Shown piece by piece: positions 411 to 32,063 of a stretch of 40,852 nucleotides of DNA; position 1 is the stretch's first letter, and every line of letters starts with the position of its first letter. Made by a program: the position numbers and the translations under genes. The stretch comes from Bifidobacterium breve. GTDB lineage: Bacteria > Actinomycetota > Acidimicrobiia > Acidimicrobiales > Acidimicrobilacustridaceae. The stretch spans positions 1-40,852 of the forward strand of contig CAMAYJ010000012.1 of the NCBI GenBank assembly GCA_945862505.1, in the 5' to 3' direction. The notes below the pieces were generated by a model that saw nothing but the letters and a program-made list of their open reading frames with translations, searched no databases and was not told the DNA's origin.

Positions 411-1622
411 TTACTTGATGCCCGTGATGAGCGAACCGGTCAGCGTGATGGATCCGCACGTTGCGATCGTGGAGAAACCAAATGCATTGACGGTTTCTTG
501 GCCCGCAGCGGAGCAGACTGCCGAGGTCGGTCCGACAAAGAGAGTCTTGACATCGTTGTTACCGAAACCGGTCACTCGTGCTGTATCGAACACGTTGTAC
601 ACGTTGCGTCCAAACACTGTGCTGGCATAAAAGACTGACGAAGGTGCGTACACCGTGTCGGTTCCGACGGTGGTTGTGGTGTAAGCCAGACCGAGATTCG
701 CACCGGTACCGTCATTTGTAATTTCTGCGAGGTCAACACCTGCTGCAAGCTGACTCAACGCAACACCGTTACCTTGAGCAATGAAGTTCCCTGCGGAGAA
801 TCCAATGATCACCTGCTTGCCTGCCAGGGCGTCACCCTTCGCCTTCAGCGCAGCAGCATCGTTCTCCTGGAGTCGAAGACCGTTTCCTGCAGTCTCACAA
901 GTCAGGGTGGAACTGGCCTCCTGAACAGCAGTCGCCGTCGTCATTCCATTCCAAGACAAATAAGTGCCCGATCCGAGCTGGATTCCACACGGAACAACTT
1001 CAACACCATTAATGGTCTGCGGGCCAGTGGTGAACAGCGTTGTGATCTGCGCTTGAGTGAATTCCGTTACCGGCGTCGTCACCGATGAATCGGCATAGTA
1101 CGCAACCGACAGAGCATCTCGACCGAAAGGAATATAGGTAAGCGCAGTGCCGGTATCACCCGAGCTTGGGCCACTCGATGAACGAGCGAAATCAAACAGA
1201 CCAGTAACAACCTTGGAGCCACCACACTGATCAGCCGGGCCGTAAACAGTGCCGTCAATGGCACGGCTCAACGCACGACGACCCTCAGACGAACCATTGG
1301 GACGATACGTCGTAGGAGCCTTCAACTTAGGTGCAATGCAATTATCGGTATGAGAAGCAAGTTTCGAATCCCAAGAAGCAATGTGCTTCGAACCCGAGCC
1401 GGAAGAACTCTGAACCGGAGTAAAAGCGTTGCCGTTCGCGAAGCCAGACAGGGCAGCCATCACATCCATCGTCGTGTCCGAACCTGCACCCACAAGCGCA
1501 TCAGCGAACTTCGGGTCAGCACTAACCGGCGATGATGGAGCGAGAAGACCAACACTGATAGTCGCAGCCAAAGCAGCAAGAACCAGTTTTGAGCGCTTCA
1601 TTTTACGAGGGAGCAGCGGCAT
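411..1622 (-). CDS. PstS-like phosphate-type periplasmic binding protein
   Basis: This is a 403-residue exported protein with an N-terminal signal peptide (MKRSKLVLAALAATISVGLL, then a small-residue cleavage region near VSA). The mature start VGAGSDTTMDVMAAL resembles the TGAGSS opening of PstS-type binding proteins. The body has further PBP-like features (SSGSGSK, GRRALSRAIDGT, FARSSSG, VIGFSAGNFIAQGNG). The ATG at 1622 is preferred because AAAGGA lies 7 bases before it; a second ATG follows 7 codons later. There is no lipobox and no C-terminal membrane segment, so the protein is either free or held by partners. It lies just downstream of pstB and just upstream of the partial surface-protein gene. 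The ligand is inferred from context; the sequence is more divergent than the PstS at 8130-9722. Confidence 0.75.
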   Translation of the reverse strand: MPLLPRKMKRSKLVLAALAATISVGLLAPSSPVSADPKFADALVGAGSDTTMDVMAALSGFANGNAFTPVQSSSGSGSKHIASWDSKLASHTDNCIAPKLKAPTTYRPNGSSEGRRALSRAIDGTVYGPADQCGGSKVVTGLFDFARSSSGPSSGDTGTALTYIPFGRDALSVAYYADSSVTTPVTEFTQAQITTLFTTGPQTINGVEVVPCGIQLGSGTYLSWNGMTTATAVQEASSTLTCETAGNGLRLQENDAAALKAKGDALAGKQVIIGFSAGNFIAQGNGVALSQLAAGVDLAEITNDGTGANLGLAYTTTTVGTDTVYAPSSVFYASTVFGRNVYNVFDTARVTGFGNNDVKTLFVGPTSAVCSAAGQETVNAFGFSTIATCGSITLTGSLITGIK

Positions 1623-1760: not shown

Positions 1761-2975
1761 TCAACCAAAACGACCATTTACGTAGTCAGCAGTCCGCTGA
1801 TCCTGGGGATTTTCGAAGATCGCATTGGTCGGTCCGTGCTCAACGATCACGCCAGGAGTTCCCTGCTCCGCAAGAAAGAACGCGCACTGATCGGAAACGC
1901 GCGCAGCCTGCTGCATGTTGTGGGTGACGATCACGATCGTCACATCCTTTCTAAGATCAACAATCGTCTCTTCAATACGTCGAGTCGAAGTCGGATCAAG
2001 AGCCGAACATGGCTCGTCCATCAAGAGAACTCGAGGGCGAAGTGCTAGGGCGCGGGCAATGCACAATCGTTGTTGTTGTCCGCCAGAAAGTCCTCCGCCC
2101 GGCTGGCGAAGTCGGTCACGAACTTCCTTCCAGAGCCCAGCTCTTTGAAGACTTGACTCCACGATTTCGTCGCGCTGTGTGACTGTGATCTTTGTACCGG
2201 TAACTCGGAATCCGGCAACAACGTTGTCGTAGATGGACATGGCGGGAAAGGGATTTGGCTTCTGAAAAACCATTCCCACTTGGCGCCGAGCATCGATGAC
2301 TTTTTTCTGGAGGTCGTAGATATCTTCGCCGTCAAGCAGAACCTCACCTGACAAAGATGCACTCGGAACAAGCTCATGCATCCGATTCAGAATTCGTAGA
2401 AACGTCGATTTACCGCAGCCCGAAGGGCCAATGAGGGCGGTCACTTCGCCTGCCGACATCGTGAGCGAAATCCTGTCGAGGACGTGATGATTTCCAAACC
2501 AGGCAGAAATGTTTTCGGCGCTGAGTTCGGCGAGTGGCAAATCTTCGAATTCGAATTCCTTCCGTATCGAAAACATCCGTCGGCTCTTTTTGACTGAGTC
2601 GCCGACTACCGTCCGTGCCGGAACTTCTCCTAATGACTCCGCATACCGACGCTCGACCAGCCCAAGAAATTCCTCTTCATCTTCCGCCTTCAAGCAGAGT
2701 CCGAAGTTATGTAGTTCTGTTGTCTGCAACAGAACCGAATTTTCTAATTCGCGATCAATTTCAGTGATCTCGGAAAAGAGCCACTTCCATTCGCGCATCT
2801 CTTTGTGGGCTACGACACCTTCATCACTGACCGTAACGGTGGCGTCTAATGCAACGACGACGACCTCATTTGATTTCATCACTTGGATCACTGATATTTC
2901 CCGGAACTCGACAGGGTGAGAACCGGATTCGACTCGATTGCTGTCGTTATTTACGTCTGGCGCTATCTGTTTCAT
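1761..2975 (-). CDS. pstB: Phosphate ABC transporter ATP-binding protein with extra N-terminal domain
   Basis: This is the ATPase that powers phosphate import through PstC/PstA. The C-terminal ~220 residues are a complete PstB: Walker [10 protein letters not shown] (about residues 183-191), the Q-loop VFQKPNPFP typical of PstB, the signature LSGGQQQR, Walker [14 protein letters not shown] and the H-loop VTHNMQQA. Ahead of it lie ~150 residues absent from ordinary PstB (usually ~250-270 aa; 404 here). Residues ~35-112 contain beta-rich segments ([34 protein letters not shown]) that look like a small PH-like domain. The start is set by TGAGGAAAATGATG: the preceding gene stops 8 bp upstream, and the second ATG (2975) has the better spacing to GAGG. 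The first ATG at 2978 would add one Met. Confidence 0.93.
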
Positions 2976-2983
2976 CATTTTCC

Positions 2984-3955
2984 TCACAACATGTTGGGTA
3001 GCAAGCGAGCAAATTGGTCGCTCACTGCGAGTCCGACCAGAACCAATAGTGGTGAAACGACTATCCAAGTTTTCATGCGACTCCAGCGATTCCATCCCCA
3101 GATGAAGAGCGCCATCACAACCACAAGGGCCTCAAGCCAAAGAACTAATTGCCAAACAGTTGACGAATCCACGCCCATGAATTTCTCCGAAGCTGGGAGA
3201 GTCTTCGAACTAAAAGCTGCACCTGACGACGCGACAGCAGTCCCCTCTAATTCCGCATCGACTCGAACGATTCCGTCGGGCATGAAGGGGCGGCCCTCAA
3301 CTGTCACAAGTTGGACCCGTGATTTTCCCTTCTCGATTTTCGCTGGCACCGGCTCGCCCTCTGAACGAACCGCAATGACCGAGAACTCAAACTCTCCCTG
3401 GCCTGTCGTAACACGAATCGGGTCGCCAACCTTGAGTTCGCTCAAGCGACCAAACGGAGCGCCGAATGAGGCTCGTCTACCCATAACGATGCTGGTTCCG
3501 ACTTGACCGGGAAAGACGGTGTCCATGCGATAACCGGGACCATCCATGGTGATGCTCGATGAAGTCCCAGCAAACACAACCTGTTGAATTCCAATTGACG
3601 GTACTTCCAAATACGCCATAGCTGTACCGGGTCGGATCATCTGTCTTTCGACATTGACCGGTCCCGTCGGTGCTGTCCCCTCTGCCAATTCAACGCGAAA
3701 TGAATTGAATGCTTTCTGTTGGGCAGAGCGTTGCTGCATCCCTCCCACAACTGAAATTGAGGCCAAAAACGCGACCAGAAGCACAGCGAAAACCACTAGC
3801 GAAATTCGGACCAGTTGGGCCCGACCGCCAAGCGCTGGGGTCTCTCCTGCGGGCCGCCTGGCAAAGAACGATTTCAGCCAGGGTTGCGAACCGCTCTCGC
3901 TTTCGGACCCTTCGGCCGACGGCGCTTCTTCGACAACTGCTCCAGTTGGGTTCAT
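2984..3955 (-). CDS. Sortase-fold membrane protein lacking apparent catalytic residues (pseudo-sortase)
   Basis: This 323-residue protein has a polar N-terminus, a membrane segment at ~49-71, a sortase-like beta-barrel at ~110-240 and two further membrane segments at ~268-288 and 295-312. The barrel carries class D/E sortase landmarks: [51 protein letters not shown] and a final VRVDAEL strand. Active sortases have a His in AGHR and a Cys in a TLxTC strand. Here the first reads MGRR (Arg at 160) and the second LVTVEG (Val at 219), and the usual Arg before the last strand also appears absent. Transpeptidase activity is therefore unlikely; a structural, chaperone or binding role is inferred. It overlaps the LPMTG-protein gene by ATGA and ends 8 bp before pstB. 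Confidence 0.8.
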
Positions 3956-4842
3956 TCAACTTCATCTGCCGGTTTCGGAGACTTGCCCACGAGGTACATC
4001 ATTCGCCCCGCGACCAGGAAAACTATCGCCCAGAAAAGTATTGACCAGACGCCACTACCCGTCATCGGCAGTCCGCCACCCGAGCTCGAAACCGGAGTGT
4101 CTGTCGATCCATCACCTGCAAGGGGATCGGTAGTCGTGGTCGACGTTGACTGTCCAACCGTTGTCGTACTCGTCGTACTTGTCGGAGCGGCCGTGGTCGT
4201 TGTTGTCGGAGCGGCCGTGGTCGTTGTTGTCGTCTGAGCAACCGAAGCAACCCAGTCAACCTTCGCGTTGTCCTGGTTGGTCGCGTCGTTTGTGATCGTG
4301 ATCTGCTGACTCCAGTACGACTTCAACTGGGTAGAACCAGCCGCACCAAGTGTGCACGCCACCCCAATGTTGTATGCCCCATCGGGGATGTTGGTTGGTG
4401 AAAACACCTGGAAATTGAAATTGGGGATACCCGAAATGCCGCCAGTGGTCGCGGGGGCAACCGCGATATCGGGAAGTTTTGCAACAACCGGAGAACCGGT
4501 GGTGTCAAACAATGGCTGTCGGAACTCAGAACCAACTGCGGTCGGACCACTGCTGCCAAACGTCAACGATGCGTCGATGTCGGCCGCAGCAGGAATCATG
4601 AATGTCTGCCACCGGTACCCGGCGTTTCCATCACCCGGGCAAGATGCACTACCACCCAGATTGATCGTGAAGTTCGTTGCACCCGTACCCGAGGACTGTG
4701 TCAACGTTGCCGTACCGTTGTTCGTCGCACCTAAAGCAGGTACAGCGCTGAAAATTCCAAGAATCGACAACAGAACCGCTGATGCCAAGAGCAGACCCAT
4801 GGCACGAAGGTTCGTGAAGTACGTCCTAATTGTTGATTCCAC
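3952..4842 (-). CDS. Cell-surface protein with Thr-rich stalk and LPXTG-type C-terminal anchor
   Basis: The protein is 296 residues if started at GTG 4842, which overlaps the upstream gene by 17 bp and has AAAAGAG before it. Other in-frame starts are 4908 and 4800. Layout: signal peptide ending near PALGA; a ~160-residue globular domain with two conserved Cys (CPGDG and VACTLG, probably a disulfide); a Thr/Pro stalk containing TTTTAAPT repeats; LPMTG at ~258-262; and a hydrophobic segment (WSILFWAIVFLVAGRMMYLVG). The tail [10 protein letters not shown] is less basic than usual. The domain is paralogous to 4826-5554 and to the partial gene at 1-401. The gene overlaps the pseudo-sortase gene by 4 bp. 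The adjacent sortase fold seems inactive, so anchoring would need another sortase or simple membrane retention. Its function is unknown; it is probably a surface part of the Pst system. Confidence 0.85.
   Translation of the reverse strand: MESTIRTYFTNLRAMGLLLASAVLLSILGIFSAVPALGATNNGTATLTQSSGTGATNFTINLGGSASCPGDGNAGYRWQTFMIPAAADIDASLTFGSSGPTAVGSEFRQPLFDTTGSPVVAKLPDIAVAPATTGGISGIPNFNFQVFSPTNIPDGAYNIGVACTLGAAGSTQLKSYWSQQITITNDATNQDNAKVDWVASVAQTTTTTTAAPTTTTTAAPTSTTSTTTVGQSTSTTTTDPLAGDGSTDTPVSSSGGGLPMTGSGVWSILFWAIVFLVAGRMMYLVGKSPKPADEVE
4181..4228. repeat. Two exact tandem 24-bp units coding for the Thr-rich stalk
   Basis: Units 4181-4204 and 4205-4228 are identical 24-mers. On the coding strand each encodes eight residues of the TTTTAAPT type. 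The copy number is likely to vary between strains, changing stalk length. Confidence 0.9.
4424..4742. repeat. Copy B of the ~319-bp intragenic duplication (partner 1-319)
   Basis: Ungapped counterpart of 1-319, covering the globular domain of the LPMTG protein. The high DNA identity, extending to synonymous positions, points to recent duplication or gene conversion within the locus. Confidence 0.9.
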
Positions 4843-5554
4843 TTTTTGCTCTTTTCTTATCGAGAAATTTGTAGGAAATGAGTCCGGCAAGCGCGACAGC
4901 GACCACACCCAGCACTAATAGGACAACAGGGCTTGATTCGCTTTCGGCGGTCACGCCGCCAATAACAGTCCAGCGAATGTTGGCTGGGCTGTCGCTCGTA
5001 TCCTCACTGATTTCAATCGTCGTTTCCCAGATCCGCGTTGCATCGTTCATAAGCGAGCAGGCGATCCCCATCTTGTAAAGACCAGGCGCAAGAGTTCCTG
5101 GGGGGAAGACGGCAAATGAGAGTTGAGGAATGGAATCGATTCGTCCGGGTTTGTCTGGAGCAACAGCAACCGACGTGAGATCCTGAACGTACGGACGGGT
5201 GTTGACGTCGTAGAGAGCCCAGTTACCTTCACCAGCAGGCTTTGTGGATTCAAACCTCAGAGTCTTGGGGTCAACCGTTTGAGGAACGATGAAACTTTGG
5301 ATTCGGTAATTTCCCTCTGCGCTGTCGCCCTGGCATTCAGATTTTCCCTGCAGGATGAATGAAAACGACGTCGAACCTTTACCGTCGGCGATTTGCTTTC
5401 CAGCATTCGGACCGTTGCCTGCAACAACAACAATGGAATTCGAATCCACATCTGTTTCCGACGCACTCGCAAGGCTCAACCCTGCCACCGGCAACTGAAT
5501 GATGAAGAAACCCAGGAGCGCAAGGATCATTTTTGAGAGGAATCCGCGCCTCAT
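4826..5554 (-). CDS. Secreted membrane-anchored surface protein, divergent paralogue
   Basis: This 242-residue protein has a signal peptide (MRRGFLSKMILALLGFFIIQLPVAG...), a ~150-residue globular domain, a C-terminal membrane helix (VVLLVLGVVAVALAGLISYKFL) and a basic tail DKKRAKSG. It should face outward, tethered by its C-terminus. The domain aligns with the LPMTG protein (CQGDSAEGNYRIQSFIVP against CPGDGNAGYRWQTFMIP; SVAVAPDKPGRIDSIPQLSF against DIAVAPATTGGISGIPNFNF; shared second Cys in ACSLM/ACTLG), but it has no LPXTG motif. Its start overlaps the preceding stop by ATGA, so translation is coupled. No known function; its place between binding proteins and transporter genes suggests a role in capturing phosphate compounds or assembling the surface complex. 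Confidence 0.85.
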   Translation of the reverse strand: MRRGFLSKMILALLGFFIIQLPVAGLSLASASETDVDSNSIVVVAGNGPNAGKQIADGKGSTSFSFILQGKSECQGDSAEGNYRIQSFIVPQTVDPKTLRFESTKPAGEGNWALYDVNTRPYVQDLTSVAVAPDKPGRIDSIPQLSFAVFPPGTLAPGLYKMGIACSLMNDATRIWETTIEISEDTSDSPANIRWTVIGGVTAESESSPVVLLVLGVVAVALAGLISYKFLDKKRAKSGINN

Positions 5555-8133
5555 GATTGTCTCCGCCTCGGACGCTTGGTGATCTCAAGTGCCGACAGAG
5601 TTGCGAACACTCCAAGCGCTGCCAGTGCAGGAACGACGAACCTGATTGGCGACATCCCAAAAATTGGAGTCGTCGCGATGACTGATTCTCCGGTTGTTGA
5701 TGGCTCAACGACCTCGGAAGGAGTTGGCTGGGTCGGGGCACCGACCTGCACCGGCATTGCAGCCGAATTCCCGTACGAACTCTCCCCATCGGTATTGTCG
5801 TCGGCAACTGCAGATGAGGTCGGCTGCAGTTCACGGATTGTCTTCGCTGCTTGCGCTGATTGCTGTCGCAATGTCTGCGGCATTGAGGCATACCCGATCG
5901 GCAATTCTCCGATGTCATAGCCCGGCGATTGACCAGCACCGCTTGCGTATTCAATAAACGACGCGTAGTCGTTGCGATCCGCCTGCGGAAGTCCGAGTGG
6001 TCGAATTACTCCGTAATTTATGGCTGTCAGTGGATAGGAACCATTCGACATTTTTGTTTGGTCAGGTTCACGAACAGCCGGATTTGTCGGAGTAGTCATC
6101 GACGCCACCGCCTTCACGAGCGCCTCGCTCGTCGGAGAAATGAACTGACGTGACGCCGAGTTGTCTCCGGCTCGACTCAATTTCGCGATCTGTAAGCCGT
6201 AAATCAAGGCTGAGGATGTGTCTGTAACCCCGATCATGGCTCGGCGGCCCAAGTACTGGGGCTGTGAACGTTTCCAGACCTGGTCCGTTGATAACGCAAA
6301 GACATCTTTCACGATGCGGGCACCATCGTCAGCAACGCGCAAGACGCGGGCCACATCGGTAAGGCTTTGGGAGTACGGCATCCAATCCGGACCGCAAAGC
6401 GCATTTGGGATGACACCGGTGTCAATCGCTGGCGACTGGTAGCAAAAGGGATCAGCTTTGGGCAACGATTCCGGTACTGAGTCAGCGAACGGCAAGCCCG
6501 TAGAATTCGCAGCTCCCGTTGTCGCATAAACGGGATTGACTTTCATCCCCCACTCGTCGGGCTGGCCATCAAGCCATCGCTTCGCCTCCGGGTCTGCCAA
6601 AATCCATTCCCAAATTTGGCGGGCAGCATCTGAATTCCGAGACGGGAGTTGCAGGCCACTAAAGGTTCGCTGGTCACCAACTTGCAACAATGCGAATTCC
6701 GGATTGAAGTTCAGAAAATCTGGATCAGTCGCCAAATTGTTTGGATTTCCAGCCAGCCAGGGATAACCGGGATTCTGAAAGATCTGAACCTGCGAGACAT
6801 AGGACTGGGTCAAAAGTTTCGCCACGATTCGCGGCGTGAGATTGAGATTTGCAACCCTTAATCCTGCAAGAAGCTGCTCATCACTAGGCGCGTCCAGTTT
6901 CGGGATTCTCTCGAAATTAAAGGCAATGGCAAGTCCGGATATTGAAAGTGGGGCGTAGACCGTCGGCTTAAGCGGGTCCTCGTCACTTGATTCGAGAGGC
7001 CTCTGCACAACCGAAAGTCCTGCAGACCCTTCCACGGGATTCACAATTTGTTGTCTTGCGCTTGCGTCCGGAATTGTCGCATAGACAAATGGAGGAAGCG
7101 ATCCAGTGCCACACAACTTGGGCTGCCATTTTGTGATGGCTGCGACGAGTAACTCATTTCCAACAATTCGACGCTCGTTCTGCGAAATTGAACATTGCGA
7201 ATCGACCGCTACAAACTCGAGTGGAATTGCAATTCGATTACTCCACGCCGCAGGAGCGAGCGGAGAGGTGAACACTCCGAACGAACGAGCATCCTGCTCA
7301 TAAGGCGTATCGACGTTTTCAATTTCTGCGGTCGAGCGCGGAACGACCACGATCCAACATTTAGGAACTTTCAAGGAGCCGCCCTGCTGCGCCTCCACTC
7401 GCTGCCCACATCCCAAGCCAGAATTTTCAAGACCGGTAACGGTCTGGAAAATCTCCGAACCAGTACCGTCCGAAAGAGTTTGACCAGCAGCGATTTCGTT
7501 CGTTGTGCTGGCACTGAAATACGGGTTCAGCCAAAAGTTGCCCCCAACGATCGAGGGATTGAAGTTTGGATCTATGTGGCGGCCAATTTCGGTTCCGTCG
7601 ACGGCCTTAAAAGGCATCCAGACATTCGACGTTTGAGAGTCGACGTAGCCAACTTGTGGGTCAAAATTCGGCCAAGTGGTGCGACTAATCAAACGACTTG
7701 CGGAAAATCCTCCGGGCAATACGCCAGAGGGCAGACCGCCATAGACACCAGACGCTGCGCCAGTTGCGCACTGACTGGGCGGCGGTCCAGGGTTTGCTTG
7801 ATTTGATCCGTCATCCTCGCCCCAGCACTGGAATATCTGAAGAAAATTGCCGCCAAACCTTCCCGGTCCTTGCAATGTCGGTGTGGCCCCAGTCCAGGAA
7901 ATCGAGACGGCCTGATTGACCAGTTGGCGCGTTTGGTTCACCTTCACTTGCAACGCTGCGAACGATTCGCGTCCCGAAACCGTGACGGCCGAATCAGTAT
8001 CCGGAAGTCTTGTATCCGTTCCGGCGCTACCAATCACTGAATTTGCCGAGGACTGTTGTGGAAGCAGAGCTACAAGCAACAGCGCTACTGCGACGGAGAG
8101 AAGGACGTTCTTCGCGTGAGATCGAATTCTCAT
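5551..8133 (-). CDS. Large secreted, C-terminally membrane-anchored PstS-associated protein
   Basis: The 860-residue product starts at ATG 8133, which overlaps the pstS stop by ATGA; a longer frame to 8238 would run far into pstS. It has a signal peptide (KNVLLSVAVALLLVALLPQQSSA), a long extracellular region, a low-complexity Pro/Thr/Ser stretch before the end (~770-820), one membrane helix (IRFVVPALAALGVFATLSAL) and a basic tail KRPRRRQS. An early segment, VNQTRQLVNQAVSISWTGATPT, resembles a beta-sandwich opening that I recall from large actinobacterial substrate-binding proteins. A later part (YAPLSISGLAIAFNFERIP, then LAGLRVANLNLTPRIVAKLLTQSY) is reminiscent of the PstS hinge region. The central part, rich in Cys, Trp and Pro, is unrecognised. 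It may be a second, fused phosphate-compound binding protein or a scaffold. Confidence 0.8.
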   Translation of the reverse strand: MRIRSHAKNVLLSVAVALLLVALLPQQSSANSVIGSAGTDTRLPDTDSAVTVSGRESFAALQVKVNQTRQLVNQAVSISWTGATPTLQGPGRFGGNFLQIFQCWGEDDGSNQANPGPPPSQCATGAASGVYGGLPSGVLPGGFSASRLISRTTWPNFDPQVGYVDSQTSNVWMPFKAVDGTEIGRHIDPNFNPSIVGGNFWLNPYFSASTTNEIAAGQTLSDGTGSEIFQTVTGLENSGLGCGQRVEAQQGGSLKVPKCWIVVVPRSTAEIENVDTPYEQDARSFGVFTSPLAPAAWSNRIAIPLEFVAVDSQCSISQNERRIVGNELLVAAITKWQPKLCGTGSLPPFVYATIPDASARQQIVNPVEGSAGLSVVQRPLESSDEDPLKPTVYAPLSISGLAIAFNFERIPKLDAPSDEQLLAGLRVANLNLTPRIVAKLLTQSYVSQVQIFQNPGYPWLAGNPNNLATDPDFLNFNPEFALLQVGDQRTFSGLQLPSRNSDAARQIWEWILADPEAKRWLDGQPDEWGMKVNPVYATTGAANSTGLPFADSVPESLPKADPFCYQSPAIDTGVIPNALCGPDWMPYSQSLTDVARVLRVADDGARIVKDVFALSTDQVWKRSQPQYLGRRAMIGVTDTSSALIYGLQIAKLSRAGDNSASRQFISPTSEALVKAVASMTTPTNPAVREPDQTKMSNGSYPLTAINYGVIRPLGLPQADRNDYASFIEYASGAGQSPGYDIGELPIGYASMPQTLRQQSAQAAKTIRELQPTSSAVADDNTDGESSYGNSAAMPVQVGAPTQPTPSEVVEPSTTGESVIATTPIFGMSPIRFVVPALAALGVFATLSALEITKRPRRRQS

Positions 8134-9722
8134 TTTTGATTTCGTTTCGAAAAGTACTGAATGCCGATAGCCGGGCCGACAATGACCATCGCCAGAAGGA
8201 GCACGACGAGAAGCGTCAGTGTTTGAGAACTCGTCCATCCTCCCGGCGCCGCTAATGACACCGGAATTGCACTTGCTAATGAATTACTTCCTCCGGCGGA
8301 ATTGACTACCGAACAATCTTCCGTGGCCGGATCACAGTCGGTTCCCGATGCCGCGGTTGCCGCTGCTGCGGCCTCAGCGCCTGCCGCACCGGCTCCGGAA
8401 CCACCCGCAGACCCTGCACCGGAATTTGTTGCGGTGGGTTGGCCTGCTGCCCCACCAGTTCCAGCAGCGCATTGGGTCACGTTGATTTTGTCGCAGTCAG
8501 AGGGAAACGGCGCATTTTTTGCCAGCAGGTTTGTTCCATCCGGCGAAAAAGTCGGGTTGTTACAGCTTTTGACATCGACTGATTGAACCTCGACCCCAGG
8601 TATTTTCCGGATTTGCTCAAGGCTTGATGACACCAGATTGATTGGGAGTGGCGAATAGCCGAGTGATGCAGACTGCTGTTGCGCCTGGCACATCGCGTAG
8701 TAGGTGAACGCTCCAAGCGTCCTACCTTTTGCCGCATTGAATTGCCCTCGAATTGTTGTCGGCAGAATGAAATATGAGTACGACGACAGTTGGTAATTGC
8801 GTGGATCGGTGTCGTTGTACACATCATCGAGAATTTGAGTCAGGTAATTGGGCGAAGCAGCGTCTGTATTGATTCGAGCCTTCAGTAGTGAGACCGACAC
8901 GTTCGTCGGGCTGGGCTCTGTGTAGAAGCCGGCCTTATTCAGCACTTTTGCGACTGGGAACCTTGAGCCAATCGCATAGGAGTAATTCACGTATCCAATT
9001 GATCCCTCAGCAAAACCCTGCGTCACGTAACCCGTGATGCCAAGATCGCCTGCCTGTGCCTTCATCCCAGTAATCGTGGGATAGGTGGAGGTTGCGCCAC
9101 ACGCAGGTGCTCTTCCCGAGCGTCGGCAGTAGTCGTTCCAGAGCGGCCCGTGTTGGCTGATCATCCATCGTGTGAACTGCGCTGTCGAACCGGAACCGTC
9201 CGAACGTACGACGGGAACTACTGGGCGATCAGGCATTGTCAGCCCGGGATTGTCCGCTGCAATCGCAGGATCATTCCATCTTGTGATCGCACCGGTGAAC
9301 AGTTTGGTTACGTTCTCACCTGAAAGTCGGAGATTGGTGACACGTTGTCCGTTGATCTTCAAGTTGTAAATAAACGAGGTGCCACCGGCCGTTACCGGAA
9401 TATATGCATAGCTTCCCGGAGCGGGATTTTCAGGCGCCGAACCATCTTCCGGTTGAAACTGAAACGGAATATCAGAAGCTGCGTAATCAACGGTTCCGTT
9501 TAGGAAATTTTTGCGACCTGCGCTGGATCCGCTTGGGTTGTAGTCAACGGTGATTCCAAATTGTTTGACATTGACGCGCATCGCATCGATGGCAACCGCA
9601 GACCAGGAGGAGCCTTCGCCAGAAATTCGCTGATAGCTCGCCTGTGCCTCAGCACTCGGGCCTGAAGCACCAATGACGGATGCCACGAGTCCGAACAGAA
9701 CCAACGCCCATACCTTTTTCAT
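8130..9722 (-). CDS. pstS: Phosphate-binding protein PstS with C-terminal membrane anchor
   Basis: This 530-residue phosphate-binding component carries the PstS signatures in order: ISGEGSSW after the signal peptide, VDYNPSGSSAGRKNFLNGTVDYAASDIPF, YIPVTAGGTSFIYNL, LFTGAITRWNDPAI and RSDGSGSTAQFTRW, which supplies ligand contacts. The protein does not end with the binding domain. It continues into a Cys-containing segment, an Ala/Gly/Ser-rich linker (~430-460), a membrane helix (TLTLLVVLLLAMVIVGPAIGI) and a basic tail. There is no lipobox, so the usual actinobacterial lipid anchor is replaced by a C-terminal helix. The gene overlaps pstA (ATGA) upstream and the 860-aa gene downstream. Low phosphate is the expected inducer. 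Confidence 0.92.
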   Translation of the reverse strand: MKKVWALVLFGLVASVIGASGPSAEAQASYQRISGEGSSWSAVAIDAMRVNVKQFGITVDYNPSGSSAGRKNFLNGTVDYAASDIPFQFQPEDGSAPENPAPGSYAYIPVTAGGTSFIYNLKINGQRVTNLRLSGENVTKLFTGAITRWNDPAIAADNPGLTMPDRPVVPVVRSDGSGSTAQFTRWMISQHGPLWNDYCRRSGRAPACGATSTYPTITGMKAQAGDLGITGYVTQGFAEGSIGYVNYSYAIGSRFPVAKVLNKAGFYTEPSPTNVSVSLLKARINTDAASPNYLTQILDDVYNDTDPRNYQLSSYSYFILPTTIRGQFNAAKGRTLGAFTYYAMCQAQQQSASLGYSPLPINLVSSSLEQIRKIPGVEVQSVDVKSCNNPTFSPDGTNLLAKNAPFPSDCDKINVTQCAAGTGGAAGQPTATNSGAGSAGGSGAGAAGAEAAAAATAASGTDCDPATEDCSVVNSAGGSNSLASAIPVSLAAPGGWTSSQTLTLLVVLLLAMVIVGPAIGIQYFSKRNQK

Positions 9723-10951
9723 GACTGCTCCGTTTCGATATCAGGCTCGATGCGTTTCAGGTCCCGCAGCGAACGGCTTTCTGCTCGTTTTCGCTGGCGA
9801 GAGGAAAGCTGTCCGGCCGGCCGGCCGCCAATCAGTCGAGCCACTGCGAACAACACAAGAACCAACACCATCAAGACCGCCGCAGTAGCAAATCCACGGG
9901 CGATAAGAGCCGGTTGTGGTGACTGGACGAATTCGAACACCGACAGCGGTAGCGAAACCATGGGATCGCGCAGCGGATTGACATTCAGGGTCGATGCAAA
10001 CCCGGAAGTGAGCAGCACCGGTGCGGTCTCGCCGATACCACGAGCAACACCGAGAATGACTGCAGTACCGAGTCCGGGGCGAGCCGTTGGCAGAACCACA
10101 TGCCAGACAGTGCGGCGTTCCGGGGCCCCGAGTGATGCAGAGGCCTCGCGAAGGTTTCCTGGAACCAACCGGATAACGACATCTGCTGACCGGATAATGA
10201 TCGGCAGCATCATGATGCTCACCGCAAGGGCTGCGGCGAGTCCCGATCGTGGTAGTCCGAGAATCAGGATGAAGGTTGCGAAAATAAAGAGTCCGGCAAG
10301 GATCGATGGGAGAGCCGACATGGCGTCGACCACTGTTCTCACTAACCGATTGAAACGACCCCGCGTTTCGTTGAGGAAAACTGCGCAGGCGATTCCCAGA
10401 GGAACAGTCAATACGATCGCGATGCCGATGATGATGAGCGTTCCGATAATCGAATGTTGGATTCCCCCGACAGACAGCGGGTCAGCTGGTCCCGCCTCGC
10501 TCATATCCTCGGTGTACAAATTCCACGTGACAAGCGCATCTCGTCCACGCCACAAAGTGAACGCCACTACTGATGCAAGAGCCGCCAAAGCGAGGGCCCC
10601 CGATGCAGCCAAAATCGCTGTCATTACTTTGTCGACGACAATGGGACTTGGATTCGTGAGCGAGACCAGTAGCGCGTAGAGGCCAAGGAAGATAAAGAAC
10701 GCAACCACGACAAATCCGACCGAACCCTGCAGCGGTGCAAGAAGTCCGAACAACAAATAGGTCACGGCAATGGCACTCGCACCGGCGCCCAAAATGTTGC
10801 CAAGGTCCTCGCGGGAAATGCCAGCAATCCTCCGCGTGTTCGACGGGGGAAGTGCGATTGGTGATATTTGCGGGAGAGTGGTTTTCGGACGCTGAGACTC
10901 CACGTTTCCCACCTGGTCTCCCACCGAGTCGGATTTCTCCAAAATCGTCAT
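9719..10951 (-). CDS. pstA: Phosphate ABC transporter permease PstA, N-terminally extended
   Basis: One of the two membrane subunits of the phosphate importer. The C-terminal ~290 residues have the normal PstA layout: GGIQHSIIGTLIIIGIAIVLTVPLGIACAVFLNE, DAMSALPSILAGLFIFA, and the EAA-type loop EASASLGAPERRTVWHVVLPTARPGLGTAVILGVARGIGETAPVL. The protein is 410 residues, against ~280-300 in most PstA. The extra N-terminus holds a polar stretch (1-45) and at least two additional hydrophobic segments (~55-98), which may contact the unusual surface partners. It overlaps pstC and pstS by 4 bp each. Confidence 0.93.
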   Translation of the reverse strand: MTILEKSDSVGDQVGNVESQRPKTTLPQISPIALPPSNTRRIAGISREDLGNILGAGASAIAVTYLLFGLLAPLQGSVGFVVVAFFIFLGLYALLVSLTNPSPIVVDKVMTAILAASGALALAALASVVAFTLWRGRDALVTWNLYTEDMSEAGPADPLSVGGIQHSIIGTLIIIGIAIVLTVPLGIACAVFLNETRGRFNRLVRTVVDAMSALPSILAGLFIFATFILILGLPRSGLAAALAVSIMMLPIIIRSADVVIRLVPGNLREASASLGAPERRTVWHVVLPTARPGLGTAVILGVARGIGETAPVLLTSGFASTLNVNPLRDPMVSLPLSVFEFVQSPQPALIARGFATAAVLMVLVLVLFAVARLIGGRPAGQLSSRQRKRAESRSLRDLKRIEPDIETEQS

Positions 10952-11976
10952 GCTTCGCTACTCGCACCGGATCGCGATCGAGCGACAAACGCCGATGCGA
11001 TGAAATTGACGACAAGCGTCATGGCAAAGAGGGCTAAGCCGGCTGCCATGAGCGCCGAAAGGCCGAATGACGAAGCTTCCTTATACCCCAGAGCAATCAG
11101 ACTTGACACCGAATTTCCCCCCGTTTCGAGTATTCGGAATTTGATGTCGAAACTGGGCGAAATAATCAGCAGTACTGCGATCGTCTCTCCGAGTGCTCGT
11201 CCGAGCCCGAGCATCGTTCCTCCGATGATTCCCCCGCGGGCAAACGGCAACGAAACAACTCGAATTGCTCCCCAGCGTGTCGCTCCCAAAGCGAAGGCAC
11301 CTTCTCGCTCGCCTAGGGGAACCTGTGAAAAGACCTCACGCATCACCGAGCTTTGAATCGGCATCACCATGAGAGCGACGACGACACCAGCGATGAAGGC
11401 AGAAGCTGTAAACGCAGACGCGTTCGGTAACGCACTATTTGACTCGGCTCCTTCCACACTGAATATGGGGATCCAGCCAAACCATGTTGAGATCCACCGG
11501 GAAAGGCCAATTACTCCTGGTTGAAAGAAGAACAGCCCCCAGAGTCCATAGACCACGCTGGGAACAGCAGCCATCAGATCAACAAGTGATACCAAAATTC
11601 CGCGGAAACGCGCAGGAGCGATATTCGTAATGAAAAGCGCGGTGCCAAGCGATATAGGGATAGCGATTGCAATTGCCACCAATGCGATCAAAACCGTGCC
11701 TAGAAGAACTGACCCAATGCCGAATCGACCTCGATCCGGTTCCCATTCGGTGGTGGTGAGGAACGAAACTCCAGTTTCGCTAAGTGCATCAAAGGCCTGA
11801 ACGCCGAGAAAGACGCCTACGGCAACCATGATGGCCAGCACTGCGATGCCCGTTGAGGACAAACCAACTCTGAAAATTCGATCGTTTCGATCTCGAACAG
11901 TATTGATAGTCCGCGGATCTGGTTCGCGACTCTCTGGCTCCGTTTGCGGAACGAATGTCTCGGTTTGGGTCAGCAT
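10948..11976 (-). CDS. pstC: Phosphate ABC transporter permease PstC
   Basis: This 342-residue partner permease of PstA has a polar N-terminus, about six membrane segments and characteristic PstC stretches: GSVLLGTVLIALVAIAIAIPISLGTALFI, DLMAAVPSVVYGLWGLFFF and the coupling loop EGAFALGATRWGAIRVVSLPFARGGIIGGTMLGLGRALGETIAV that docks on PstB. The ATG at 11976 overlaps the end of a small upstream frame (ATGCTGA), which suggests translational coupling. It is the first recognisable transporter gene of the long minus-strand operon. Confidence 0.95.
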   Translation of the reverse strand: MLTQTETFVPQTEPESREPDPRTINTVRDRNDRIFRVGLSSTGIAVLAIMVAVGVFLGVQAFDALSETGVSFLTTTEWEPDRGRFGIGSVLLGTVLIALVAIAIAIPISLGTALFITNIAPARFRGILVSLVDLMAAVPSVVYGLWGLFFFQPGVIGLSRWISTWFGWIPIFSVEGAESNSALPNASAFTASAFIAGVVVALMVMPIQSSVMREVFSQVPLGEREGAFALGATRWGAIRVVSLPFARGGIIGGTMLGLGRALGETIAVLLIISPSFDIKFRILETGGNSVSSLIALGYKEASSFGLSALMAAGLALFAMTLVVNFIASAFVARSRSGASSEA

Positions 11977-12222: not shown

Positions 12223-12885
12223 CTAGACCTTGTCGTCAAGGATGAAGCCAAACCCTCTCACCGCCCGTATTCGACGAATACCTTCCAAATTTTCGAGTTT
12301 CGTTCGAACCCGACGCACCACCGAGTCAAGCGAATCCGGGCCTTCGCAGCCGCTCTTCTCGCTCAAAACACGCTTTGACACCACCGAGCCGGGACGATCG
12401 GAAAGAACCGAGAGGACCGCAAATTCACTGGATGAGAGCCTGATTGCCTGTTCTCCCAAAGACACCGACAAGTTGCCCGGATTGAGAATGATTCCGCTTT
12501 CCGCTCTTGATATCGCGGGTCTCCTTCGAGCCACTGAACGAATTCTCGCCAGCAGGAGGCGATCGGAGATCGAACAGTCAACAAACTGATCAAATCCAGC
12601 TTCCAACGCTCCAACTACGACATCACTGTCCGCATCGTCACCGACGGCTATTGCCCGTAATCCGCCTGACTCGAGGAGTTTCGCCCACAACTCGACATCA
12701 GTCGAGGGTCCAAAGAATACGATTGGTACGCTCATCGGAGGGATTTCCGAAGTACCGGAGACGACTTCCCATCCCTCGTCACCAAGGAATCGTGCTATCC
12801 GATTAGCCCCTGGAAGACCTGCATCAACATAAACAGTGGGCGCGCTCTGCGAACCTCTCACTGCCGGCGAATTCCTAAGCCGCAT
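12223..12885 (-). CDS. OmpR/PhoB-type response regulator with degenerate receiver domain
   Basis: This 220-residue regulator has an N-terminal receiver-like domain (~18-122) and a C-terminal winged-helix DNA-binding domain (~132-220), seen in IRLSSSEFAVLSVLSDRPGSVVSKRVL and SVVRRVRTKLE...IRAVRGFGFIL. In the receiver, the strand that normally ends in the phosphate-accepting Asp reads VPIVFFGP, with Gly at the site. The conserved Lys-Pro after the GADDY-like element (GFDQFVDC) is also replaced. Phosphorylation by a sensor kinase therefore looks impossible, and no kinase gene is adjacent. It is the first gene upstream of pstC on the same strand, so it probably controls the Pst locus by another signal. 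GTG at 12888 is an alternative start. Confidence 0.88.
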   Translation of the reverse strand: MRLRNSPAVRGSQSAPTVYVDAGLPGANRIARFLGDEGWEVVSGTSEIPPMSVPIVFFGPSTDVELWAKLLESGGLRAIAVGDDADSDVVVGALEAGFDQFVDCSISDRLLLARIRSVARRRPAISRAESGIILNPGNLSVSLGEQAIRLSSSEFAVLSVLSDRPGSVVSKRVLSEKSGCEGPDSLDSVVRRVRTKLENLEGIRRIRAVRGFGFILDDKV

Positions 12886-13107
12886 CACTTGCAGGGAATC
12901 TGATCCTTCACCTCGAGCAAATTAGATGCGCTCGGTTAAGCCCTTGCTACGAACGCGCATTGCAAAGATGAACTTCAGATAAATACTTCCGTTGCTCGGA
13001 GGAGTTCGCCGTCGAACCGTAAGGACGGCCTCTCAAAGCGCTGGTAGTAAGCAACAAATTTGGCCAGAGTCGTTTGCAGACATTCGACGTGAGGCTGCGT
13101 CGCAGAT

Positions 13108-26608: not shown

Positions 26609-27157
26609 ATGAGCGATGTGCTTTGGTTCCTCACCCGATCCTCGGGCATCGTCGCGATGATTTTGATTGCTGCAGCAATCATCAATGGATTCATCTATTC
26701 CGGTCGCGAAGGCGGGCAGCGCATCCGCCCGGAGTGGTGGGTCGACCTGCACCGCGGTCTCGGTGGCTACGCGCTGATCTTCACCGTCTTCCACCTCTTG
26801 ACCGCTTACGGCGCCGACCTTGGTTATGGCGTCATTGACATCATCATTCCTGGTGTCTCAAAGCAATGGACCACGGCCGTCACTCTTGGCGTGCTGGCGT
26901 TCTACGCAATGCTCATCACCGTGTTCACGACCTGGCCTAAGCGAAGGTTTCGCAGCCGGATATGGCACGCGATCCATCTCCTTACGCTTCCGGCCACGAT
27001 CGCCATCGGCGTGCACGGTTGGCAAATGGGAACTGATTCGCGCACCGGTTGGTATATCGCACTCATGGCGATCCTTACCGGACTCGTGATGTATCCCGCT
27101 GGGCTGCGCATCTCCGGCCTCATACGCTCTCGTCTAGTGACGTTCTGGAACGCCTGA
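26609..27157 (+). CDS. Ferric-reductase-like transmembrane haem protein
   Basis: The 182-residue membrane protein has about five or six helices and the ferric reductase-like arrangement of paired His ligands: VDLHRGLGGYALIFTVFHLLTAYG and WHAIHLLTLPATIAIGVHGWQMG. It begins MSDVLWFLTRSSGIVAMILI. It should pass electrons across the membrane through b-type haems. It lies 3 bp ahead of the FMN-binding protein and is followed by ApbE, which fits a route from the inside to an extracytosolic flavin. The N-terminal cytosolic partner is not in the window. Confidence 0.88.
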   Translation: MSDVLWFLTRSSGIVAMILIAAAIINGFIYSGREGGQRIRPEWWVDLHRGLGGYALIFTVFHLLTAYGADLGYGVIDIIIPGVSKQWTTAVTLGVLAFYAMLITVFTTWPKRRFRSRIWHAIHLLTLPATIAIGVHGWQMGTDSRTGWYIALMAILTGLVMYPAGLRISGLIRSRLVTFWNA

Positions 27158-27160
27158 CCC

Positions 27161-27757
27161 ATGCCCACACCTAACGATCCCTACGATGACATCGTGACTC
27201 CTCCGGTTCCCGACGAACCCCTTTCAGAACTCGCCGCGCCTTCCGCAGCCCGTCCGAGTGAGTTGGAACTCAACCCATCACGACACAACGGATCGAAACG
27301 TCGTCATGCCGCGAAAGGAAGCCGTTCTGCAGCCTTAGGTTTGGCTGTCGTTTCCACCCTCGGGATGGCTGCGTATCTGCATCAAGCATCGCAATCCTCC
27401 GGCTCTGCTGCCACTATCCCTTCTGCCCCGGCAACAACATCGACCAAAAAACCTTCCGAAACCAAATCAATGGCCGATGGAGTCTGGAATGGTGATGCAT
27501 CGACGAACCGCTGGGGACTAGTGCAAGTTGCCATCACCGTTTCCGGCGGAAAGATCACTGCTGCCAGCGCGCCCCTCTATCCATCAGATGACAACCGCAG
27601 CCTTTCCATAAATCGCATTGCGATCCCGAAACTGGTGCAGTCCACGCTCACCGCACAAAACGCGAACGTGAACTCTGTGTCTGGGGCGACCTCTACCAGC
27701 GAGAGTTACCAGACTTCGCTGCAATCAGCCATCGACCAATCTCACGCTTCGTCCTGA
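27161..27757 (+). CDS. Membrane-anchored FMN-binding domain protein
   Basis: The 198-residue protein has a polar, basic N-terminal region, one membrane helix (~56-73), a Ser/Thr/Pro linker and an extracytosolic FMN_bind domain (~105-190). The flavinylation motif SGATS is at ~174-178 (in VNSVSGATSTSESYQ); the Thr at ~177 is where ApbE would attach FMN through phosphate. The domain start DGVWNGDASTNRWGLVQVAITVSGGKI is typical. Placed between the haem membrane protein and apbE, it is the expected electron acceptor of the module. Confidence 0.9.
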   Translation: MPTPNDPYDDIVTPPVPDEPLSELAAPSAARPSELELNPSRHNGSKRRHAAKGSRSAALGLAVVSTLGMAAYLHQASQSSGSAATIPSAPATTSTKKPSETKSMADGVWNGDASTNRWGLVQVAITVSGGKITAASAPLYPSDDNRSLSINRIAIPKLVQSTLTAQNANVNSVSGATSTSESYQTSLQSAIDQSHASS

Positions 27758-27760
27758 CCA

Positions 27761-28531
27761 ATGGCAACAGGTATTCACCATGTCGAAGTTGTCATGGGCA
27801 TGGCCGTTTCGCTCGACGTGCGAGATGACATTGAATCAAGCGCAATAGATACCGTCGTTGCCTGGCTCCATCACGTTGACGCCACATTCAGCACCTACAA
27901 AATGGAAAGTCCTATTTCACAGTTCGGTCTCGGACTCATTTCCGCTGATCAACTCAGTGAAGAAGTCCGCGATGTTTTGACGCTATGCGAGTCGGTGCGC
28001 GAGGAAACCTCTGGTGCCTTCAATATTGCGTGTGTTCCTGCGCCGAATGGTTCAACTCTTGACCCATCGGGACTCGTCAAGGGTTGGTCAATCGAACGAG
28101 CCGCAGAACTTCTCGAAGCGCACGGCGCCACGAACTTCTGCATCAACGCTGGCGGCGATATCGCACTTCGAGGTAACGCCGAACCTGATCAACCTTGGCG
28201 TATTGGCATTCGCCACCCATCAGAGCCGCTTGCGTCAGCTGCGGTTCTTTCTCTCGGCGGTCGCGCCGCGATCGCAACATCAGCAACCTATGAGCGCGGC
28301 GCGCACATCATCGATCCCAAAACAGGCGAACCAACAGCCGAACTCGCCAGCGTGACCATTGTTGGCGAAGACCTCACCTACGTCGACGCCTATGCAACTG
28401 CAGTCTTCGTAATGGGGCTCAACGGTGCCGAATGGCTACTGGAAACTCACCCCGAACTCGATGCATTTGTTATTGGCCATGACGGCCTCACATGGGAGAC
28501 GCCATGGTTTAACCGCTGGCGCTCCTCGTGA
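27761..28531 (+). CDS. apbE: FAD:protein FMN transferase (ApbE family)
   Basis: This 256-residue ApbE-family enzyme transfers FMN from FAD onto Thr of FMN-binding proteins. Recognisable parts are VVMGMAVSLDV, HHVDATFSTYKMESPISQFG, DPSGLVKGWSIERAAELLEAHGATNFCINAGGDI, and the catalytic/metal region ATSATYERGAHIIDPKTGEP followed by ASVTIVGEDLTYVDAYATAVFVMG. There is no signal peptide or lipobox, so as drawn it would act in the cytosol, although its partner's FMN domain is predicted outside; an unconventional route or prefolding transfer is possible. It starts 3 bp after the FMN_bind stop. Confidence 0.92.
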   Translation: MATGIHHVEVVMGMAVSLDVRDDIESSAIDTVVAWLHHVDATFSTYKMESPISQFGLGLISADQLSEEVRDVLTLCESVREETSGAFNIACVPAPNGSTLDPSGLVKGWSIERAAELLEAHGATNFCINAGGDIALRGNAEPDQPWRIGIRHPSEPLASAAVLSLGGRAAIATSATYERGAHIIDPKTGEPTAELASVTIVGEDLTYVDAYATAVFVMGLNGAEWLLETHPELDAFVIGHDGLTWETPWFNRWRSS

Positions 28532-28629: not shown

Positions 28630-31600
28630 TCAACCCGTGAACGAAGGTTTGACATCAGGAGTCTCAACGTAGGTAAAACCTCCAACGAGCGTCGCGGTCT
28701 GACCATCGGCTGTTGTCACGACTACGTCAAACACCCCGGGATCTTGAGGCCCCGTAGTGCAAATCAGCTGCGATTTCGTGACAAAAACGACTGGCACACA
28801 TGGAACTCCACCGATTTCGACAGCGGTTTCCGTTGTGAGATTTGTGCCGTCAATGGTTACCTCAGTGCCACCTGCATCCGGGCCTGATCCAGGTGTCACC
28901 GAATCGATTGTCGGAGCAGCGGTCGTTGCCAGCGGAGTGACGTCCGCGTCGTTTTCTGGGATCGGATCAGCGGTGTTTGAGGCCACAACGACTTCGGTGT
29001 CTCGCGATGCCGGAACCGGTGTGCTTGCCGAGCGCACCTCGATGTCAATCGTTGCCGATGCGCCGTTTACGAGATCGCCCAATGCACACGTAATCGTGGC
29101 CCCCGATTCGATGCATCCATTAGGAACAGCCTCCACCGAAAGCCCGTTCGGAATCGTTAGAACCATCGTTGCTGCGGTGGCATCGGATGGACCGTTGTTG
29201 AGCGCAGTGAACGACAATTTGGCTGACTCACCTGGCGCCACGATTCCGGGCCCATTCGCTGACGCTACTAAGTCGGCAAATGGGATAATTCGGGTCGTTG
29301 CAGATGCAGTGTTGTTTGCGAGATCAATATCATCGGTAATTGCAAAAACCTCTGCCTGATTTATCGCAAGGCGATCATTCACCGGGACCACGGAGTTGAA
29401 CGATCCACTTATCGTCAGGGTTCGAGTCGCTCCGACTGCCGTTGCTCCGCTCCAAAGACAACTCAACGCTGCGCCGGTTTGATCGCAGCTTCCGCCACCG
29501 CTAGGAGTAGCGACAACAGTTGAGGTATCTACCGCGTCCGGCAACAAGTCGACAATCTGGACATCTGTGGCTGCACTCGTTCCGTCGTTCGAGACGGTAA
29601 TCGTCCAGAGAACGGAATCGCCTTGCTCTGCAACCTCAATCGATGCTGTCTTCGCAATCGAAAGGTCAGTTGCGGGACGAATCACCAACGGAGCGGAATC
29701 AGTTGCTGGAGTAGGAGTGATGTCAGAACTCGCCGTTGCAGTGTTGATCACTGTTGTTCCTGCAATTTCCACCTGAACGCGAGCTCGGATAGTTACCGCC
29801 AACGTCGTCCCAACAGGTACCGACCCAAGTTGACATGAAACGATCGTGTCAACACCGCTACCACCGCTTGTTGAACAAGTTCCCTGCTGAGTTGTCACCG
29901 TCTCGACGTCAAGAAACGCAGGGACCGTATCGATCAACTCAGCATTCAACGCTGTTGCCGGCCCAGTGTTACGCAATTCGAGTCGGTAACCAGCGAGCGA
30001 ACCGACACTCACTGTTTCAGTGATCGCCGACTTCGCAAGTCGAAGGTCGGCATAAGGAGAAACTCCCGCTGCAACCGTTGAAACGTCATTCAACAATGCA
30101 GGACTATCGGGATCGGTTGGTTGTCCGCCACCCGAGACAGTTGCAGTGTTTGTCACCGGCTGTCCTGCTGCAAAATCAGCTTCCACATACAGCGGGTCTA
30201 ATGACGTTCCGGGGAGAAGCCCGGTGTATGAATCTTGGCAATTCAGTGTTTGGGCACCACCAGAGGAACACGACCATCCGAAGCCTGAGTACGTGATGTT
30301 GGTAGCCGCAGATCCGAGCACATCAGTCACAGAAATGAGTTGCGAAGATGCCGCCAGTGTTCCGGCGTTTGAGACCAGCACTTTGAAGCGATAGCGGGTA
30401 CCGCCCGAGACGGGCGTCGTTGAATCGATCGTCTTTGAAACGGAAGGATCGGGGTAGGTCACTGTTGCAGTGCGACTGGCAATCTTCGAGATCGGAAGCC
30501 CAAGATCGGGCGAAACGAAACGCAGCTGCGCGGTATTGGTGATTGCGCTACCAAGCACAGCGTCGCCATCAATAACAACATCGAATTCCACTGTCGCCGA
30601 CTGGCCGGGAGCCAATGTTCCCCCGGTGGAAGCGGTGGCCCCGCTGCCGAGACGTGCCGTGATCGAGTTACTCACAACCGTCGCATTACCAACTCCGCTC
30701 GTGACTGTCGGTGATCCACTAACAGTGGTTCCCCCCGGCAATGGATCAACCAGTTCCACATTGGTGGCTGGCCCAGACCCGTTGTTTGTTGCGGTGATTG
30801 TGTAGCGAATCGTCGCGCTAGGTTCAGCATTCGTTGACACTGGAAAACTTTGTGTCTTTGTGAGATCAACCTGGGGTGAAAAGAGTTCAGTAGCGAAAGT
30901 GATGGCCTGCGGTGCATAGGTGTCTCCGCTGGTCTTCGCGCGAAACATTGCACTCGTTGCCCCGTTGGGAAGAAATCCATCGGCTGAGAAAAGACTTGAG
31001 TCGTATCCCAGTTGGTTACGCCAATCAGGATTCTTCGTTGTGACATGCGCACCACGATTTGCAATCGTTGAATTCTCAGTGTTGTTCGAAGGATGCACCG
31101 CGTCGGTCAGCAAGTTGTCATTCACTGACAGGTAATCGCCGGTAGCGCCCGCGTCGCCTTCAGCAGCCACTACTCCGATCGTCGTGCGAACCGTTCCCGT
31201 CGATGGCGTTTTGAATCCGGATAACGCGATATCAATTGCATTGGTACCAGATACGACTTTCAGACCATCGAACACCGAAAGATTACGAAGAGGCTCGCTT
31301 GGATCGGCGTACGCGACGACGAGCGACCAGCCTGCAGCAATGTTTCCGCCCGTTCCGGTTTGTACGTCGGCAACCGTGTAGATGCCAGGGCCAGCCTCGG
31401 TCACCAATTCGGTGACATCTGCGAATGCTCCGTAACCACTTCCAACAGCGATCGAACCAAGATCAACATTCGCAGCCGTCACATTTTGATACACCGGCGA
31501 ATCCGGAAGTTTGAATTTCACTTGTCCAATGGCAGATGCATTGGGAGGTGGCATCGGCACACCGACGTATCCGTTTCCGCCAGTGATGACGTCGCCCTTT

Positions 31601-31998: not shown

Positions 31999-32063
31999 CA
32001 AGGAACCTCCAGAGGGAATAAACGAACATTATCTGTTCGTTCGGCGTCCGTCTTGACGTTCCT

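Follow-up and report, generated by a model that had tools for sequence, protein, structure and literature searches.

In the 40,852-nucleotide stretch of DNA analysed here (hereafter the window), a Pst-type transporter operon contains a gene whose product has the fold of a sortase and lacks all three catalytic residues of the enzyme, and this loss is shared by a family of relatives across actinobacteria. The gene (2984..3955, minus strand; 323 amino acids from an ATG start) and its catalytically dead product are named srtX and SrtX here. Neither the fold nor the transporter is new; what appears to be new is their combination, with a catalytic loss that is conserved. In the open-licence literature, no paper was found for the phrases pseudo-, inactive or non-catalytic sortase, and among the matches listed, judged by titles and abstract openings, there was neither a dead sortase nor a sortase homologue in a Pst operon. 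On balance, and with no great confidence, we are inclined to regard SrtX as a membrane adaptor without catalytic activity, part of a specialised Pst-type machine and equipped with a groove that has taken on a new specificity.

The SrtX chain comprises a transmembrane (TM) helix at residues 44-92, a sortase barrel at approximately 107-239, and two C-terminal helices (264-290 and 293-322) that are read from the structural model as TM. It scores 44.8 bits on the Pfam Sortase model PF04203, above the cut-off of 26.6, and stays below the cut-offs of the class E sortase model NF033747, which is its best NCBIfam match (60.6 bits, cut-off 160), and of the TIGR01076 sortase model (31.4 bits, cut-off 39.35). 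The class E model and two class D models match all 47 family members that were scanned. An AlphaFold2 model (pLDDT 88.8, pTM 0.80), for which an alignment of 47 family sequences served as input, has a single long N-terminal helix including the first TM segment, followed by the barrel and the two C-terminal helices. Fold comparison overlays the model on SrtD of Clostridium perfringens (Z 18.3, 3.0 Å, 153 residues), SrtE of Streptomyces avermitilis (Z 15.7, 2.0 Å, 127 residues) and SrtE1 of Streptomyces coelicolor (Z 15.4, 2.3 Å, 131 residues), and the 50 rows displayed in two such comparisons are all sortases. The sortase barrel that the original prediction placed at 2984-3955 is thus upheld both by the PF04203 score and by the overlay on solved class D and E enzymes.

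The window genome encodes only one other sortase-domain protein, a canonical class E enzyme whose catalytic residues are H129, C200 and R209. These residues align, respectively, with R160 (codon 3476..3478), V219 (3299..3301) and I229 (3269..3271) of SrtX, all on the minus strand. For comparison, the catalytic residues of SrtE1 are His251, Cys320 and Arg329 (PMC5148588). Neither His nor Cys occurs anywhere in the SrtX chain, so that no substitute catalytic residue is possible, and the catalytic His-Cys-Arg set of a sortase enzyme is missing. The original prediction had reported the absent His and Cys and had named another His or Cys in the active site as the finding that would overturn it; the alignment and the composition of the whole chain agree with it on both points. 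The loss of the third catalytic residue, Arg, is equally real and was absent from that prediction. A further active-site position has changed, as the Tyr that follows GPGH in class E sortases (Y128 of Thermobifida fusca SrtE, read from the aligned wild-type and Y128F entries) is R143 in SrtX.

The same pattern is found across the family. The sample of 81 sequences consists of the window SrtX and the best 80 of 190 relatives across actinobacteria; the relatives came from a family-profile scan of named genomes and were picked by two peptide patterns that exclude the catalytic positions. At the His site there are 80 Arg and 1 His; at the Cys site 76 Ala, 2 Thr, 2 Ser, 1 Val and no Cys; and at the Arg site 66 Val, 6 Thr, 4 Ile, 4 Leu, 1 Ala and no Arg. 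In the control set of 30 class E sortases, which are matches to the canonical sortase of the window genome as query and include that enzyme, Cys and Arg are present in all 30 and His in 29, the single gap being a sequence broken by an in-frame stop. An in-frame TAG is seen in L139, a class E sortase match in the congeneric genome G053. Because the same pattern holds over 80 relatives, the loss in the window SrtX is not due to chance; on the aligned sequences, catalytic loss is a family trait and not local decay. Homologues keeping both residues had been named as grounds for the opposite conclusion, and Cys occurs in none of the dead-family homologues examined. Of the two positions singled out by the original prediction for conservation, R160 is common to 80 of the 81 sequences, but V219 is confined to the window, the family residue being Ala. 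The window SrtX is also atypical at other near-invariant positions: with V219, the set comprises T136, Y142 (His in 80/81), M144 (Arg in 80/81), E275 and S292. Its nearest relative, L054, has His at the His site and Ala at the Cys site.

The best 80 relatives belong to Acidimicrobiia, Streptomyces, Microbacteriaceae, Actinoplanes, Propionibacteriaceae, Planotetraspora and others, and the best named relative shares 54% identity with the window SrtX. In an order-level search of 298 genomes, 10 besides the window's own have long relatives at 45-49% identity; the next matches above 100 bits lie at 33-41%, and lower down dead and active proteins are mixed. Among 13 more distant dead relatives, the Cys site is Ser in 10, Ala in 2, Thr in 1 and Cys in none, while His is found in 1 and Arg in 7, 6 of these 7 together with Ser. 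That 7 of the 13 retain Arg suggests that His and Cys were lost first and Arg later. A tree was built from 72 rows. All 30 class E sequences make up one side of a branch (support 100/99) and the core dead family forms one group (88/98), with the distant dead rows in between. When the tree is rooted at its midpoint, with no outgroup, the dead protein L053 falls next to the class E side, so that whether the catalytic loss had a single origin depends on where the root lies.

Matches of at least 180 bits to the family profile were obtained in 9 of the 296 genomes of a phylum sample, which means that the system is scattered. A canonical sortase in this sample scored 142 bits and the dead distant relative G216 less, so scores are not a full separator of dead and active proteins. 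A horizontal origin was considered; the composition of the window is even (GC 0.53-0.575), and none of the four congeneric genomes sampled reached a close-family score. A Streptomyces SrtX query gave no match in the plasmid collection, and PADLOC gave no anti-phage defence match for five operon proteins. Two strains, Streptomyces sp. Ag109_O5-1 (L081 and L126) and S. diastatochromogenes (L079 and L120), each carry two different srtX copies in two system types.

The operon that holds srtX lies on the minus strand in the order pstC, pstA, a PstS-like gene with a TM segment, the gene of an 859-residue protein, a small surface protein gene, the gene of a surface protein ending in LPMTG, srtX, pstB and a third PstS-like gene. 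The permeases PstC (10948..11976; TIGR02138 242.8 bits, cut-off 196.45) and PstA (9719..10951; TIGR00974 214.7 bits, cut-off 193.45) and the ATPase PstB (1761..2978; TIGR00972 350.7 bits, cut-off 343.2) all pass the curated cut-offs and thereby qualify as Pst subunits. The likely start of pstB is 5 nt past the srtX stop. From this start, PstB has an N-terminal extension of approximately 150 residues. Judged by ORF lengths, many Acidimicrobiia-type loci probably have such an extension, and the PstB of several Streptomyces and Actinoplanes loci is approximately 270-290 amino acids long. A response-regulator-like gene (12223..12888, minus strand) is located upstream of pstC; a relative occurs in 5 of 80 loci, and its membership of the system is uncertain.

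Three proteins of the operon are PstS-like. PstS1 (8130..9722, minus strand), which has a C-terminal TM segment, aligns with solved phosphate-binding proteins, with a TIGR00975 score (174.1 bits) below the cut-off of 205. The large membrane-anchored protein (5551..8130, minus strand; 859 amino acids from its likely start) consists of an N-terminal region, a PstS fold at residues ~317-771 and a C-terminal TM segment. It overlays PstS3 of Mycobacterium tuberculosis (Z 30.0, 2.6 Å, 309 residues) and matches PstS1 in profile comparison (probability 97, E 2.8e-11). In that profile alignment the 859-residue protein has not kept the Ser-Gly-Thr loop with which PstS binds phosphate, so it may depart from the usual mode of phosphate binding. 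The third protein, S403 (411..1622, minus strand), was recognised by its family profile, whose matches are phosphate-binding proteins and a receptor akin to them (best E 9.8e-7); S403 matches the PstS1 profile with probability 80 over 96 columns.

The linkage of srtX to pst genes is nearly constant. PstB was found by tblastn at more than 180 bits in 78 of the 80 loci from named genomes and in 24 of another 25 regions, which share species with the 80 loci and are not independent of them; a looser ORF search (blastp, E 1e-4) gave 79 of 80, and the stricter count is used here. The three loci or regions without PstB have other Pst genes, and in L072 and L202 the contig ends at the pstB site. Altogether, at least one Pst gene is present in 105 of the 105 loci and regions examined. 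In contrast, when the surroundings of 20 canonical class E sortases were examined, none had PstB above 180 bits, PstC, PstA or PstS1; weaker matches to the PstB query (58-149 bits), seen in 11 of the 20, are taken as other ABC ATPases. A set of 20 regions was chosen from the top order-level matches; one of these, L052, is a canonical class E sortase and was moved to the controls. The window genome has a separate Pst operon elsewhere (PstB 395.5 bits), so the srtX-linked Pst system is an addition. Constant Pst neighbours could mean shared regulation and not contact.

The genes between the PstS-like genes and srtX encode lineage-specific surface proteins. In the window, the secreted protein encoded at 3952..4908 (minus strand) ends in LPMTG (4071-4057), a TM segment and a short tail, and has no Pfam match. 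Its neighbour M242 (4826..5554, minus strand), also secreted, with a C-terminal TM segment and no Pfam match, is apparently a distant paralogue of its domain. A second copy of this domain, encoded by the first gene of the contig at 3..401 (minus strand), is cut by the contig end; by eye, it is a near letter-for-letter repeat of the LPMTG protein's N-terminal domain, and we regard it as a recent duplication or gene conversion inside the operon. Neither WxL nor WxLIP was seen in the window operon, where no Pfam family matches the proteins of 318, 242, 403 and 133 amino acids at E 1 or better. Across other loci, 68 of 83 candidate lineage-specific proteins were scanned, with 15 left out, and matches at E 0.01 or better comprised 20 to WxLIP_PGBD, 17 to a bacterial Ig domain and 7 to WxL; two Actinoplanes proteins exceed the Pfam cut-offs of WxL-type families. 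In L110, L093 and loci like them, the Pst operon itself contains actinobacterial genes for WxL and WxL-interacting proteins. We know of no earlier description of a Pst operon as a setting for WxL complexes. Elsewhere in the window, a long secreted protein (28630-32001, minus strand; 1123 residues) consists of repeated domains that are DUF11-like by eye, with an IPT-like end. At 26609-28531 (plus strand), a ferric-reductase-like membrane protein and FMN-binding-like and ApbE-like proteins are seen by eye in a row, and this looks like a flavin-based electron-transfer set.

The original prediction proposed that SrtX could dock the surface protein encoded next to it onto the transporter by holding or recognising its LPXTG tail. 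The gene of the LPMTG protein does lie directly before srtX, as had been claimed: its stop overlaps the ATG of srtX, the two genes having 4 nt in common (ATGA, 3955-3952). Also in favour of the proposal, the site loops at SrtX 130-149, 160-168 and 219-229 keep lengths equal to the class E medians. The signal itself was defined as L[PAS]x[TS]G followed by a hydrophobic stretch within the 60 C-terminal residues, a pattern that may miss variants. A protein with such an LPXTG/LAXTG-like end is found at srtX in 22 of 73 loci (80 minus 7 without upstream DNA), 12 of these being strict LPx[T/S]G, and in 16 of the 24 loci that we assign to the window lineage. For example, LPKTG and LPLTG occur upstream of srtX in two Actinoplanes-type loci, and LASTG ends the gene before srtX in four Streptomyces loci (L113, L127, L130 and L132); LAXTG is a form known for class E sortases (PMC5148588). 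However, the signal is absent from the end of the srtX-upstream gene in 51 of the 73 loci, while Pst genes are nearly constant; a large Streptomyces group has there a protein of approximately 660 residues without an LPXTG-like signal. A universal LPXTG partner for SrtX is thereby ruled out. The groove has also changed where class E enzymes read the signal: the catalytic Arg is replaced by Val or Ile, the Tyr after GPGH by Arg, and the beta6/beta7 segment, which forms the P4-Leu pocket of SrtE1 (PMC5148588), differs in sequence and has 15-16 residues in the family versus 17-40 in class E. Moreover, the canonical class E sortase of the window genome could serve LPXTG proteins. The part of the original prediction that stands is a dead sortase fold tied to a transporter. 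That SrtX holds an LPXTG tail is possible, and we do not favour it.

Within the barrel, the groove is still better conserved than the rest. Barrel positions conserved in at least 95% of the family amount to 20 of 52 in the groove and 13 of 82 elsewhere (rank test, a modest p of 0.02), and the corresponding numbers for class E sortases are 16 of 42 and 17 of 82; the groove segments were hand-picked, and "groove" is defined by alignment to class E structures. The conserved set includes R143 (79/81), R144 (80/81; Met in the window), D145, R160 (80/81), R197 (81/81), G200, P204, G221 and P226, together with D233 next to the groove. A conserved groove set without catalytic residues is as expected if the groove still binds and no longer cuts.

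These arginines allow a second alternative: the Arg-bearing groove would bind wall polymers rich in phosphate, or phosphorylated ligands, which SrtX would deliver to the Pst pump or sense on its behalf. In its favour are the Arg residues newly conserved where the active site used to be (R143, R144, R160 and R197), together with the linkage to a phosphate-type transporter. The charge of the barrel speaks against it, as the mean net charge is near zero (0.28 across the 81 sequences; -2 in the window), D145 and D233 are equally conserved and may neutralise the arginines, and the window SrtX has M144 in place of R144. Since the barrel is not unusually basic, the anion-groove reading is kept as a rival, and an improbable one. 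An extended form of the idea, in which a dead sortase family provides a Pst-type pump phylum-wide with a receptor that faces the wall, the Arg groove capturing anionic wall or surface ligands and holding the three PstS-like proteins over the channel, appears to us a shade less probable still; if true, one machine would grip the cell wall and import phosphate or a phosphorylated compound.

Much less credible is the suggestion that SrtX is still an enzyme with an unusual chemistry, using a Ser or Thr nucleophile and Arg as the base. The distant relatives give it some ground: 10 of 13 have Ser in place of the catalytic Cys, and 7 have kept Arg, 6 of them with Ser. But the Cys position is Ala in 76 of the 81 core members and Val in the window, neither of which is a nucleophile, and Ser-type catalysis in the core family is ruled out on this account; in the distant relatives it stays conceivable. 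A local pseudogene or sequencing artefact, for which the unusual residues of the window SrtX at several near-invariant positions might speak, is contradicted by the open frame, the tight spacing to both neighbours and the same losses in the ten close relatives of the order and the best named one, and can hardly be taken seriously.

We return to SrtX as a non-catalytic adaptor, a role that we infer from gene order and conservation. SrtX would be an ancient class E-like pseudoenzyme from which the whole catalytic triad was lost, and which became a fixed subunit of a second, specialised Pst-type ABC uptake system. It would sit in the membrane with the barrel outside and act as a binding adaptor, bringing together, beside the PstC/PstA channel, the PstS-like proteins that have membrane anchors and the surface proteins specific to each lineage (LPXTG, WxL or Ig). 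The groove of the former active site would still serve for binding, its catalytic and signal-reading residues having given way to a new conserved set. As for the groove ligand, a segment of a partner protein is our first guess and an anionic wall polymer the second. There is a precedent in SipA, a dead signal-peptidase relative that is needed for pilus assembly in Streptococcus pyogenes (PMC4049620).

Sortases attract study as enzymes, as drug targets and as tools for protein ligation. If the adaptor reading is true, a sortase family that has abandoned catalysis and belongs to an ABC transporter would put the fold to a new use and would show what the groove does without chemistry; actinobacteria would also have a second kind of Pst system, with surface-bound binding proteins. 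It would be more than a variant if the groove ligand and the substrate of the machine prove unusual. Caution is needed in annotation, as a sortase-domain assignment alone labels these dead proteins as enzymes. The relatives include cultured Streptomyces, Microbacterium and Actinoplanes, in which the role is directly testable.

Four known systems can be set beside the one described here. Class E sortases (SrtE1 of S. coelicolor, SrtE of S. avermitilis and SrtE of T. fusca; NF033747) resemble SrtX in the barrel fold (Z 14.3-15.7) and in the N-terminal TM segment, and two class E rows have, by eye, a C-terminal tail of two TM segments. SrtX differs from them in the loss of His, Cys, Arg and the Tyr after GPGH, and in the presence of a Pst gene in all 105 loci and regions. 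The high-affinity phosphate transporter PstSCAB is similar to the window operon in its PstC, PstA and PstB, which score over the cut-offs, and in the alignment of PstS1 with solved phosphate-binding proteins. Unlike PstSCAB, the window operon has three PstS-like proteins, two of them with C-terminal TM anchors, a PstS1 below the TIGR00975 cut-off, and surface proteins together with a dead sortase.

Surface complexes of WxL proteins and WxL-interacting proteins are known from low-GC Gram-positives, and to our knowledge they include no Pst transporter or sortase homologue. They are like the srtX operons of other lineages, in which WxLIP_PGBD and WxL matches are found, and unlike the window operon, which has no WxL or WxLIP domain in its scanned proteins. 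SipA of S. pyogenes, as described in PMC4049620, has the fold of a signal peptidase and not of a sortase and belongs to a pilus operon and not to a transporter; like SrtX, it is a conserved dead relative of a protein-processing enzyme, one that retains its peptide cleft and that surface assembly requires.
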